IMG/VR virus record: IMGVR_UViG_3300035701_000172
Span: 1-31,752 of that record
Direction: 5' to 3' (one strand)
Source: a virus
Length of the DNA: 31,752 nt
The notes beneath the pieces were generated by a model. That model had not been told where the DNA came from. It saw nothing but the letters and a program-made list of their open reading frames with translations, and made no database searches. A program made the position numbers and the translations under genes. Shown in pieces: positions 3,032 through 7,518 of the stretch; position 1 is the stretch's first letter; every line of letters starts with the position of its first letter.

Positions 3032-4618
3032 ATGGATTTTTCATTTTTTACCGTTGACAATAAGTCAGGATATAAAACACAAGAAAAATGGTTTAGTAAA
3101 AATTATTTTATAGAATACGAAAAAATTCTTAATTATTCTAATAAATTGAATATAGAAATGAACTTCAAAGAAAAAATTTGGTTTTATTATAATAATTTAA
3201 TAGAAAGACCTAAATGTATAACATGTGGAGGTGAAATTAAGTTTAGAAATAGATTTGATAAACCATATGGCGAATTTTGTTCATTATCTTGTATTAATTT
3301 AAATAAAGAAGAAATGATAAAAAGGCAAAAAGTAACTTTTCAGAAAAAATATAACATTAATTTTTATCCCCAACATAAAGATTTTCTTAGTAAACAAAGA
3401 AAAACCAAACTGGAAAGATATAACGATGAAAATTATAACAATTCAAGAAAAATGATCAACACTAAACTTAAAATTTACGGATCTGAAAATTATTGTAATC
3501 ATAATAAGTATGTTGAAACTTGTAAAGAAAAATATGGCGTAGAAAATTTTTCAAAAACAAAAGAATTTAAAAATATAATGGATGAAAGATTTCAAAAATT
3601 ATATTTAAATGTTAATATTATAAAAATATTAAAAAATAAAATTGAAATTAAATGTGATATATGTAATAAAATAAGTGAAATTGAAAAACATTTATTATAT
3701 GGTAGAATAAAACACGATCAAATTATTTGTCCCCTTTGTAACCCAATAGGCCAAAGTCAAAAGAGTGGTTATGAAATTAAAATATCCGAGTTTCTTGATG
3801 AACTTTTTATAAAACACATATCATCTGACAGAAAAACATTAACTAAACAAGAGTTAGATATTATTGTGCCAGAATTTAATTTAGCAATTGAATTTGATGG
3901 TGTGTACTGGCACAACGAATTATTTTTACCTTTCGATTATCATTTAAAAAAAACAATAGAATGCCAAGAAAAAAACATAGAATTAATTCATATTTTTGAA
4001 GATGAATGGGTAAATAAAAAAGAAATTGTTCAATCAATTATAAAGAATAGGTTACAAAAAACAGACAATACTTTATTTGCACGAAAATGTAGGATCAAAG
4101 AAATAGATCCAAAAATATGTAAAATATTTCTTGATGAAAATCACATTCAAGGAAATGTTAATTCCAAAATTAAAATCGGATTATATCATGATGATGAATT
4201 AGTGTCTGTTATGTCATTTTCAAAAGGTAGAATACTAATGAGTGGAAAAGCCAATGAATGGGAATTAACTAGATTTTGTAATAAAATAAATACTAACGTG
4301 GTGGGAGCAGCAGGAAAACTTTTTAATTATTTTGTTAAAAACTACTACCCAACAAAAATTGTATCATATTCGGATATTAGACTGTTTAATGGAAATATGT
4401 ATAAAAATTTGGGATTTGAGAAAATATCTCAGTCAAAGCCAAATTATTGGTATGTTATTAATGGAATAAGGTATCATCGATTTAATTTTAGAAAATCGAT
4501 TTTAATTAAAGAAGGATTTGATGTAAACAAAACAGAAAAAGAAATAATGTTTGACCGAAAGATATATAGAATTTACGATTGTGGACATATTCGATGGGAA
4601 TACAATGTACTTAAATAA
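3032..4618 (+). CDS. Free-standing homing endonuclease, EDxHD/Vsr-like
   Basis: A selfish DNA endonuclease inserted between tube and baseplate-assembly genes. Domains in order: an N-terminal zinc ribbon (C62, C65, C83, C87); about four short repeats with a YG-x-EN/NF core at residues 105-182, of the kind seen in DNA-binding arms of phage homing enzymes; a second zinc site (C208, C211, C233, C236); a Vsr/DUF559-like nuclease core (SGYE with E248, QELDIIVPEFNLAIEFDGVYWH with D276, D289, H294); and a C-terminal domain around 346-505 with a VSYSDIRLFNG-x-MYKNLGF signature shared by many phage homing enzymes. The assignment to the EDxHD group rests on the spacing of E, D and H. The gene is visibly more AT-rich than its neighbours and has its own promoter-like sequence, both signs of recent arrival. 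Neither neighbouring gene appears broken. Confidence 0.88.
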   Translation: MDFSFFTVDNKSGYKTQEKWFSKNYFIEYEKILNYSNKLNIEMNFKEKIWFYYNNLIERPKCITCGGEIKFRNRFDKPYGEFCSLSCINLNKEEMIKRQKVTFQKKYNINFYPQHKDFLSKQRKTKLERYNDENYNNSRKMINTKLKIYGSENYCNHNKYVETCKEKYGVENFSKTKEFKNIMDERFQKLYLNVNIIKILKNKIEIKCDICNKISEIEKHLLYGRIKHDQIICPLCNPIGQSQKSGYEIKISEFLDELFIKHISSDRKTLTKQELDIIVPEFNLAIEFDGVYWHNELFLPFDYHLKKTIECQEKNIELIHIFEDEWVNKKEIVQSIIKNRLQKTDNTLFARKCRIKEIDPKICKIFLDENHIQGNVNSKIKIGLYHDDELVSVMSFSKGRILMSGKANEWELTRFCNKINTNVVGAAGKLFNYFVKNYYPTKIVSYSDIRLFNGNMYKNLGFEKISQSKPNYWYVINGIRYHRFNFRKSILIKEGFDVNKTEKEIMFDRKIYRIYDCGHIRWEYNVLK

Positions 4619-4656: not shown

Positions 4657-5409
4657 ATGGAAGAATTTAAAATTGACCCTTCAATAGCGTATGACGTTGT
4701 TGAATTACCAAGTAAAGGGATTATGTATCAAAACAATAAAAAAACAGTTCGAGTGGCATATTTGACCGCCGCAGACGAAAATGTTTTGGCATCACCAAAT
4801 CTAGCATCAACTGGTGGCGTTGTTATGGAATTACTAAGAAGAAAAGTATTAGATAAAGATCTGATGGCTGAGGATATTGTGGAAGAAGACAAACAGGCAA
4901 TATTAATTTTTTTAAGAAACACATCTTTTGGCTCCGAATATAAAATAACATTAACAGATCCGAAAACCAGAGAAAAATTTGAAACGACAATAGATTTATC
5001 TTGTCTTAAAATAAAAGATTTTTCGTTGGTTGCCGACATAAATGGTGAATACCCATATTATCTCAAAAAGTGTGGAATTGATATTACGTTTAAATATTTA
5101 ACACAAAAACAAGAAACGGAACTTAAAAAGATAGAAGAAAGCTGGAATGGTATTGGAGCGGCCCCCATTGTAACAAAAAGGATCGAAATGATGATTAAAT
5201 CTCTTGGAGGAAACAGAGATATTATGCAGATACATAGTTTTATTGAAAATAAAATGCCTATTGTTGATTCTCAAGAATTCAGAAAATATGCAATTGAAAA
5301 TAAACCAGGAGTTGATTTAACTCAAAAAGTAACTACCCCATCAGGAGAAGAGATCCAAGCTGAGATTGGGTTTGGGGTGGAATTTTTTCGTCCTTTCTAC
5401 GGAATATAG
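4657..5409 (+). CDS. Baseplate/tail assembly protein (gp26/gp51-like), short form
   Basis: The 250-aa zero-frame product. Its plan fits the T4_baseplate (gp26/gp51) type of protein: an N-terminal VVELPSKGIMYQNNK entry, an LTAADENVLASPNL segment, a helical region, ILIFLRNTSFGSEYKITLTDP around residues 85-107, a DLSCLKIKDF strand pair, and an ITFKYLTQKQETELKKIEES helix. It sits between the tube and tape-measure genes, where long-tailed phages encode their tail assembly chaperone. The frame ends at TAG 5407-5409. The next frame over is open through this end and encodes a helical domain (see the 5390-5539 entry), so this ORF is probably one of two products. The family call is moderately sure; whether it acts as hub component or chaperone is inference. 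Confidence 0.75.
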   Translation: MEEFKIDPSIAYDVVELPSKGIMYQNNKKTVRVAYLTAADENVLASPNLASTGGVVMELLRRKVLDKDLMAEDIVEEDKQAILIFLRNTSFGSEYKITLTDPKTREKFETTIDLSCLKIKDFSLVADINGEYPYYLKKCGIDITFKYLTQKQETELKKIEESWNGIGAAPIVTKRIEMMIKSLGGNRDIMQIHSFIENKMPIVDSQEFRKYAIENKPGVDLTQKVTTPSGEEIQAEIGFGVEFFRPFYGI

Positions 5410-5539
5410 AGAAAGTCAATTAAAAGAAATTTTTATGTTAGTTAAACGAGGATTTTCTTACGGAGATATTCTTGTTATGCCAATTTTTGTAAGAAGATAT
5501 TATTTTAATTATATCATCGAACAGGAAAATAAGAAATAA
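5390..5539 (+). CDS. +1-frame C-terminal extension of the gp26-like protein (programmed frameshift)
   Basis: The +1 frame is open from about 5336 to TAA 5537-5539. From the proposed slip site it encodes 49 residues beginning VLSTEYRESQLKEIF and continuing MLVKRGFSYGDILVMPIF, then VRRYYFNYIIEQENKK. This resembles the short helical domain (L..I...+..FSY..+..MP...R+) that I recall as the tail of phage baseplate/tail assembly proteins. The likely slip is on TTT TTT CGT (5383-5391): tRNA-Phe reading TTT can move +1 onto TTC, pairing better at the third base, before a CGT codon. The fusion would be 293 aa. A -2 slip on the T6 run gives the same frame. An internal ATG at 5435 would give only 34 aa and would cut the conserved motif, so separate initiation is less likely. 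A sequencing error or real frameshift mutation remains possible. Confidence 0.7.
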   Translation, partial: VLSTEYRESQLKEIFMLVKRGFSYGDILVMPIFVRRYYFNYIIEQENKK

Positions 5540-5541
5540 TC

Positions 5542-5549
5542 TATTTATA
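5542..5549 (+). promoter_or_regulatory. Late box immediately before tape-measure gene
   Basis: TATTTATA just 3 nt after the end of the frameshifted frame and only 4 nt before the ATG at 5554. If it marks a -10 region, the mRNA would start at or next to the start codon, giving a leaderless or nearly leaderless transcript. Confidence 0.45.
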
Positions 5550-5553
5550 TTAT

Positions 5554-7518
5554 ATGGGAATTACTTCTAAATTAATAGATATTGCAAAAGGTGGGAAACA
5601 GAATTGGCCAAATTTTCTTTCTGAGTGGACGAACAAAATAGATCCGCATGATTCTCTGTTATATGAGGCAGAAACAACAAATGCTCGGATAGCCTTTAAC
5701 GCGTTAACAAATCAAGAAAAGGCGGATGTCGCTAGTCAAAATATACTTAAACCAACAGGAGTAGGAACAGGAGGATTTATCAATCGAGCAATGGCCACTC
5801 AGTATGCTCCTACAACAATGAATTTGCCTGAATTTGGAACGATAGAAGGCGGAGAAAAAATTATTGGAGGTCTTGTTGATATATTTTCAGGAAGATGGGG
5901 CGCGGGTTTAAAAAAAATAGGAAGTATTCTTCAAGGCGAGGTTCTTTTATATCTATCACAAACTAACAAGCTTTATCGAGAGATTAATGAAAAAGCTATG
6001 ATGACAGGGGAACTTGCTGAAGCGTTTAGAGGTGAAATTATGGAAGCTTCCCCCTGGATAACAAAATTAGGTATAGGATTTGAAGAATTTTCGGAATCTG
6101 TTGGAAATTTAGTTGCAAACTCAGGAAAATTTAAATTACTTAACGAAGACACAATGAAAGACATGGCTTTAGCAAGTAAATTTACTGAAAGTATGGGAGC
6201 TTTTGTCAATATGGGAAAAGATTTCGAAAGAATTGGATTAGGCGTTCGTGATATGTCTACTTTAATTGAAAAAATGGCAATGAGATCTCTAGCTCTTGGG
6301 TTAAACGGAAAAACAACAGTAGCCATGGTTGCCGAAAATCTAAAAAAGATCAATCAATATGGTTTTAAAGATGGGGTAGATGGTTTAGCTAGAATGGCTC
6401 AAAAATCGGTAGAATTCAGAATGAATATGCAAAATGTGTTCACGTTGGCCGAAAATGTCTGGAGTCCAGATAAAGCACTTGATATTGTTGCAAATTTACA
6501 GGTTATTGGTGGAGCATTTGGAGATTTAAATGATCCAATTAAATTAATGTATATGGCAACAAATAATGTTGAGGGATTACAGGACGCGATAATTGGAGCA
6601 ACGAGATCGTTAGTAACATATAATGAAGAACAAGGCAGATTTCAGGTAACGGGAGTTCAACTTAGACAGGCAAAAGCAATGGCCGATGAACTTGGTATGA
6701 GTTTGGAAGAGTTAAGTGATACTGCCATTGCTCAGGCGGAGAGAACTGAGGCGGCTTATGATTTATCGGGGTTAAGTTTTAATATACCAGAAAAAGAGAT
6801 AGAATTTTTAACTAACTTAGCTCGAATGGAAGGTGGTAAAATGATTATTGACATTCCAAAGACATTACGAGATGATTTAAAAATGAATAACGACCAAACT
6901 TCGTTAGCTCTAGATAGTATGACACAAGAACAAAAAGAGATAATTATAGATCAACAAGAGCTTCTCACAAAAATGGATCCAAAAGACATACCAAGACAGC
7001 AAGTTATGGCTCTCGAAAATATTCAAAGAGACATGTCTGCGTTGAGAGGATATATGAGAGTTACGATTGGTCACAATGCAGCGGATATAGTAGAGAAAGC
7101 CCTAGGAATAGATGGTGATCTTGTTAAAAAATTATCTGAGGGTCTTTCAGGCATAGGAATGAAACAAATTGAAGGATTTGATAAATATGCAGAAGAATCA
7201 ATTAAACAATGGGATGGACTTGTAAATATCGGTGAAATGGCGTCAAATTGGGTTGATAATCTTAATAAGACGAATGAAAGTAAGGAAGAAAAACAAAGAG
7301 GAGAAGTAAATACAGGAGCAAATTCAATGAATGTTGTTGCAGCGGAAAAATTGGGCCGTTCAGAAAATCCCGTAACGCCGTCTTCTACCGTTGAAAGAAA
7401 AATTATTGATATAAATATTGTTCCAACGTCAGCATCGATGGATCGAATTGCACAAATATTTTGGGGAGATCCAAGATGGCAGGCTAATTTAAAAGATAGT
7501 TTTATAAATCCAAATTAA
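5554..7518 (+). CDS. Tail tape-measure protein candidate (gp29-like position)
   Basis: 654 aa, almost wholly helical by inspection, with long heptad-like amphipathic runs and few cysteines. A glycine-rich, moderately hydrophobic stretch occurs near residues 100-135 (EKIIGGLVDIFSGRWGAGLKKIG). The middle region (about 215-360, with GLGVRDMSTLIEKMAMRSLALG and FTLAENVWSPDKALDIVANLQVIGG) resembles proteins annotated as tape measures in large phages of Bacteroidota. The C-terminal tail after about 570 is polar and low in complexity. The position fits: directly after the frameshift gene and before baseplate genes. If residues scale at about 1.5 angstrom each, the tail would be near 100 nm, like T4 (gp29, 590 aa). 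This is an inference from length, composition and order; no catalytic domain is visible. Confidence 0.72.
   Translation: MGITSKLIDIAKGGKQNWPNFLSEWTNKIDPHDSLLYEAETTNARIAFNALTNQEKADVASQNILKPTGVGTGGFINRAMATQYAPTTMNLPEFGTIEGGEKIIGGLVDIFSGRWGAGLKKIGSILQGEVLLYLSQTNKLYREINEKAMMTGELAEAFRGEIMEASPWITKLGIGFEEFSESVGNLVANSGKFKLLNEDTMKDMALASKFTESMGAFVNMGKDFERIGLGVRDMSTLIEKMAMRSLALGLNGKTTVAMVAENLKKINQYGFKDGVDGLARMAQKSVEFRMNMQNVFTLAENVWSPDKALDIVANLQVIGGAFGDLNDPIKLMYMATNNVEGLQDAIIGATRSLVTYNEEQGRFQVTGVQLRQAKAMADELGMSLEELSDTAIAQAERTEAAYDLSGLSFNIPEKEIEFLTNLARMEGGKMIIDIPKTLRDDLKMNNDQTSLALDSMTQEQKEIIIDQQELLTKMDPKDIPRQQVMALENIQRDMSALRGYMRVTIGHNAADIVEKALGIDGDLVKKLSEGLSGIGMKQIEGFDKYAEESIKQWDGLVNIGEMASNWVDNLNKTNESKEEKQRGEVNTGANSMNVVAAEKLGRSENPVTPSSTVERKIIDINIVPTSASMDRIAQIFWGDPRWQANLKDSFINPN

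Follow-up and report, generated by a model that had tools for sequence, protein, structure and literature searches.

The window (the whole 31,752-nt stretch of DNA analyzed here) carries genes for the tail sheath, the tail tube (2478-2966, + strand; phrog_4542, E = 1.1e-25) and an HNH homing endonuclease upstream of a gene that is predicted to be read in two frames of the + strand. Frame 0 encodes TAC-N, a putative short tail assembly chaperone of 250 aa (4657-5409) that ends at TAG 5407-5409. No stop interrupts the +1 frame between 5333 and TAA 5537-5539, and TAC-C, the predicted +1-frame C-terminal extension (5390-5539, +; 49 aa and the stop), is supported by pN/pS, a phrog_150 match and hhalign comparisons, all given below. 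Joining the two frames yields a product of 293 aa, TAC-NC. The predicted shift site is TTT TTT CGT (5383-5391, +), in which the putative P-site codon UUU (5386-5388) overlaps UUC (5387-5389) and CGU (5389-5391) would occupy the A site. The dual-coded stretch at 5389-5409 (+) reads RPFYGI-stop in frame 0 and VLSTEY in the +1 frame, and its DNA is near-invariant among relatives. Upstream, GGGGTG at 5374-5379 (+) is a candidate stimulator, of which the GGG at 5374-5376 is common among relatives. The original prediction had given the frame-0 stop, the T6 site and the end of the +1 ORF, and all of these coordinates are correct. It had also named the next gene (5554-7518, +) as tape measure. This name agrees with the position of the gene and with the annotation of the same slot in LIS04 and, one short ORF later, in immuto, but no Pfam or PHROG family matched the gene, and we refer to it as a putative tape measure gene. 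The HNH homing endonuclease gene (3032-4618) sits between the tube and chaperone genes, as it does in three relatives, while in two others with an identical chaperone protein only a 54-aa stretch resembling its N-terminus remains.

The frame-0 protein matched PF12322 (T4_baseplate; E = 1.2e-8, 35.4 bits against a cut-off of 24.5) and phrog_150 ('baseplate hub'; E = 2.2e-10, 41.4 bits, columns 15-233), which represent the family containing T4 gp26 and gp51. The joined 293-aa protein scored 48.0 bits against phrog_150 over columns 15-281 of 282, a gain of 6.6 bits with the tail, and the added tail covers the columns to which the C-terminus of T4 gp51 aligns; T4 gp51 itself spans columns 13-280. 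An AF2 model of TAC-N alone (mean pLDDT 86) resembles the predicted structures of SP-15 and other gp26-type proteins; a fold search of the PDB with this model gave no significant match, the HK97 chaperone 2OB9 ranking fourth with E = 1.9. Tail-to-tail profile comparisons with hhalign gave 99% between the clade of the window and the Mel-JY01 clade, and the Mel-JY01 clade gave 96% with a Gram-positive set, 90% with KVP40 and 75% with the cyanophages. The cyanophage tail in turn gave 98% with KVP40 and 68% with the C-terminus of T4 gp51, and the direct comparison of the window tail with T4 gave only 1%. These profiles indicate that TAC-C is homologous to other TAC-C domains, with the T4-like link running through intermediates. 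Judged from sequence, the best explanation of the locus is the tail assembly chaperone of a T4-like myophage, and its products would have the corresponding roles.

To define the conservation of the layout, we compared relatives from IMG/VR. A first scan gave seven loci with 64-100% identity, all of which share the two-frame layout of the window, and more than 150 further loci came from scans with a profile and with a DNA pattern; the latter is biased toward the motif, while the profile includes only GFG[VA]EFF of the motif plus an N-terminal peptide. One scan confirmed 506 relatives, and a scan of genome contigs confirmed none. The resulting comparison set holds 135 distinct IMG/VR genes in ~45 clusters at 70% identity. 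The tail lies in the +1 frame in all 135, and complete tails are 45-65 aa long; in one relative (L049) the contig stops 16 nt past an apparently short tail, which was set aside as an end artefact. The sequence TTT TTT CGN is present in 134 of the 135, and TTT TTT in 142/142 relatives when near-identical copies are still included. The exception to CGN (L070) has TTT TTT CAG, and CGN is therefore not strictly required. The frame-0 stop falls exactly six sense codons past the shift codon in 134/135, and 27 of the 135 genes have a +1-frame TAG directly ahead of T6, which confines the shift in those genes to ~27 nt. The two-frame layout and the T6-C-G site of the original prediction are thus conserved across the 135 distinct relatives, with CGN in all except one.

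Purifying selection acts on the tail as read in the +1 frame and in no other. In 416 pairs of relatives, its pN/pS is 0.285 in +1, close to the 0.305 of TAC-N in frame 0, whereas the same DNA gives 1.27 and 1.93 in the other two frames. Likewise, none of 116 relatives has a stop within 38 tail codons in +1, against 115-116 of the 116 in each of the other two frames. Codon choice at the shift site is also constrained: both Phe codons of the site are invariably TTT, whereas TTT and TTC both occur in other conserved Phe columns (70:46 and 86:25), and this fixation concerns sequence upstream of the shift, where the DNA is not dual-coding. For a single sequence with the base composition of the window, the probability of 43 open codons is ~0.015; the 8-mer TTTTTTCG occurs nine times in the window against 5.0 expected and is not rare, but only 2 sites in ~10,000 codons carry UUU_CGN in frame. 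The case rests on conservation and not on the rarity of the motif, and the layout is far above chance because the same arrangement holds in 135 distinct relatives.

The +1 layout is also found in distant phages with other junction sequences, namely Flavobacterium immuto (TTT CTT), the 484-kb LR756508 (TTT CTA), Streptococcus GXN1 (TTC TTT CGT), Bacillus SP-15 (TTT TTT CAC), Rhodothermus RM378 (TTT TTT TGG), Listeria LIS04 (TTT TTT AGT) and Microcystis Mel-JY01 (TTT TTT TGG), the last with 65 IMG/VR relatives. Among the relatives of Mel-JY01, 62 have TTT TTT TGG and three CTT TTT TGG, and two further ones have TTT TTT TAC. All of these distant phages except LIS04 have UUU_Y at the junction, so that peptidyl-tRNA-Phe can re-pair cognately after a +1 shift. 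The AGT in LIS04 violates UUU_Y unless the first UUU slips, and this counts against the P-site model.

Separate initiation, sequencing error, -2 frameshifting and transcriptional slippage could each be invoked for such a locus, and all of them fit poorly. The reading of TAC-C as a small separate gene, started for instance at TTG 5366 or at an ATG farther downstream, agrees with its annotation as a separate ORF in some records (Mel-JY01, KVP40, P-SSM7), and 99 of 130 relatives do have a +1-frame ATG, GTG or TTG ahead of the shift. However, only five of these 99 starts are ATG and their positions are scattered, 31 of the 130 relatives lack any pre-shift start, and in 14 relatives the first possible start comes at codon 29 of ~49, within the conserved domain. 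Separate initiation therefore cannot be general; no conserved separate start was found in the 130 relatives, and such a start would leave the invariant T6 and the fixed frame-0 stop unexplained. We regard this reading as very improbable. That a gene uninterrupted in reality was broken by a sequencing or assembly error is suggested by the metagenomic origin of the contig and by the proneness of T6 runs to indel errors, but two frames are present in all 135 distinct relatives, none of which is continuous or joins the frames by an indel, as well as in isolate genomes that were sequenced independently and differ at the junction. The relatives refute this reading, and its probability is practically negligible.

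The remaining two readings depend on the T6 run. The original prediction left open a -2 shift as in phage Mu, which would also lead into the +1 frame but add one Phe, and in the window and its close relatives re-pairing after -2 slippage on T6 is indeed perfect. At the junctions of GXN1, immuto and LR756508, however, a -2 shift would put tRNA-Phe on TCT, GCT or ACT, whereas a +1 shift puts it on TTC. The +1 part of that prediction is supported and the -2 part is a poor alternative, highly improbable in our judgment, because the divergent sites bar -2 re-pairing yet permit UUU to UUC. Slippage of RNA polymerase on T6, so that the mRNA is already frame-changed, would suit the T6-T7 run of most relatives; GXN1, immuto and LR756508 keep the two frames without a T6 run, and transcriptional slippage usually requires runs longer than T6. 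We consider this, too, extremely unlikely.

Programmed +1 ribosomal frameshifting that gives both a 250-aa TAC-N and a 293-aa TAC-NC, as originally predicted, is therefore supported by the comparative evidence of two coding frames, the shift site and 135 relatives, and we infer from these sequences that it very probably occurs. Most ribosomes would stay in frame 0 and make TAC-N. In a minority, peptidyl-tRNA-Phe would rest on UUU 5386-5388 during a pause while the A site holds CGU, a seldom-used Arg codon (103 of the 407 Arg codons in the window are CGN). The tRNA-Phe would slip one base forward from UUU to UUC, and translation would go on in the +1 frame to give TAC-NC. UUU_YNN is reported to be especially +1-prone in bacteria (PMC5009743). 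By analogy with lambda G/GT, TAC-N may coat the tape measure protein and TAC-C may recruit tail tube subunits. The upstream GGGG may act as a stimulator and boost the shift: GGG encodes the Gly at 5374-5376 in 130/142 relatives, though GGA is the usual Gly codon, and GGGG is absent from one divergent subclade and from the Mel-JY01 clade. An anti-SD role for it is doubtful because none of the window's 20 gene starts has an SD-like sequence; their leaders are A-rich and Bacteroidota-like. RNAalifold on 30 diverse sequences found no 3' RNA stimulator downstream of the site (z -0.4 to -1.4); over -30 to +30 it gave a weak hairpin on the shift site itself (z -3.5), which we did not take as functional. 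Searches of the window returned no phage tRNAs and no Rfam matches.

In other T4-type phages the tail lies in the -1 frame. Eighty cyanophage-type genes have TTT TTC, one sense codon and a stop in frame 0, with the tail in -1, and the -1 layout is also found in KVP40, Aeromonas 65, Yut3, ACP17, Ci1, OspM_OC and P-SSM7; the 595-kb LR756511 also appears to have it. Of 79 complete cyanophage tails, 77 have their first ATG three to six codons in, so that separate initiation is harder to exclude in the cyanophages. T4 itself has two genes, 26 and 51, whereas the window has one gene with its tail in +1. Vladimirov and colleagues reportedly describe frameshifting in several T4-like groups. The +1 group, by contrast with the -1 layout, comprises the window and its 135 relatives and includes phages of Flavobacterium, Microcystis, Bacillus, Listeria, Streptococcus and Rhodothermus. 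We lean toward the interpretation that one TAC family reversed its direction at the same Phe-Phe pair, between -1 in cyanophages and other T4-type phages and +1 in this large group, and that the +1 branch converged on the UUU_CGN of influenza A and amalgaviruses.

Frameshifting of tail chaperones is widespread, as in lambda G/GT, P2 E/E' (-1) and Mu (-2) (Xu, Hendrix & Duda 2004), all of which differ from the window in direction and slippery sequence. Atkins et al. 2016 except T4 and list HSTV-2 as very likely +1; this halovirus has, like the window, a myovirus tail chaperone with a predicted +1 shift (PMC5009743, PMC8211752) but infects archaea. T4-like TAC genes were identified by Vladimirov, Gautam & Davidson (2022, Virology 566:9-15), a study that PMC12846349 cites for -1 poly-T signals and PMC10885494 for T4-like phages with separate short and long genes. 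As these papers cite it, a frameshifted chaperone in T4-like phages is already known and not new, and because of this work the original statement that no frameshift was described for the gp26/gp51 family fails. The T4-like TACs 26/51 and their frameshifted kin share with the window phrog_150, a short and a long form and, in many relatives, the genomic slot. The +1 direction at UUU_CGN may be new to the TAC family. UUU_CGN is the +1 signal of influenza PA-X and the amalgaviruses (PMC6356274, PMC3498833), and an in-frame UUU_CGN opens the conserved +1 overlap in 134/135 relatives, matching that motif definition. Influenza A PA-X (UCC_UUU_CGU) and the amalgaviruses are alike in UUU_C, a CGN A-site codon, the +1 direction and the lack of a clear 3' stimulator, but they are eukaryotic RNA viruses with unrelated genes, and the E-site codon is UCC in PA-X and UUU here. 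In YopN-TyeA (UUU_YNN) and prfB (CUU_UGA), the P-site tRNA slips +1 onto an overlapping cognate codon, as proposed here. However, prfB depends on both a stop codon and an SD element, and the window has neither in that form: the A-site codon is CGN and not a stop, and the upstream GGGG is clade-limited.

Past the TAC-C stop, TATTTAT occurs within 45 nt in 126 of 127 relatives, right before the next start (5542-5549 in the window). The 8-mer TATTTATA also lies ahead of the starts at 2478, 3032, 18579 and 29904; it is no more frequent in the window than expected by chance, and TATTTAT/TATTTATA is a candidate late promoter or start signal. The public records of seven relatives either list the C-terminal part as an ORF of its own (hypothetical protein or gp51) or omit it. 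In several sequenced relatives, then, the C-terminal half of the chaperone is filed separately as 'hypothetical protein' or 'gp51', or is unannotated. Forward shift sites that do not lie at a stop codon easily escape notice, and the bacterial examples on record are few. A large natural set of 135 distinct genes with a fixed UUU_CGN could reveal how bacterial ribosomes slip forward, and the same set could show how a gene switches from -1 to +1 without loss of function.
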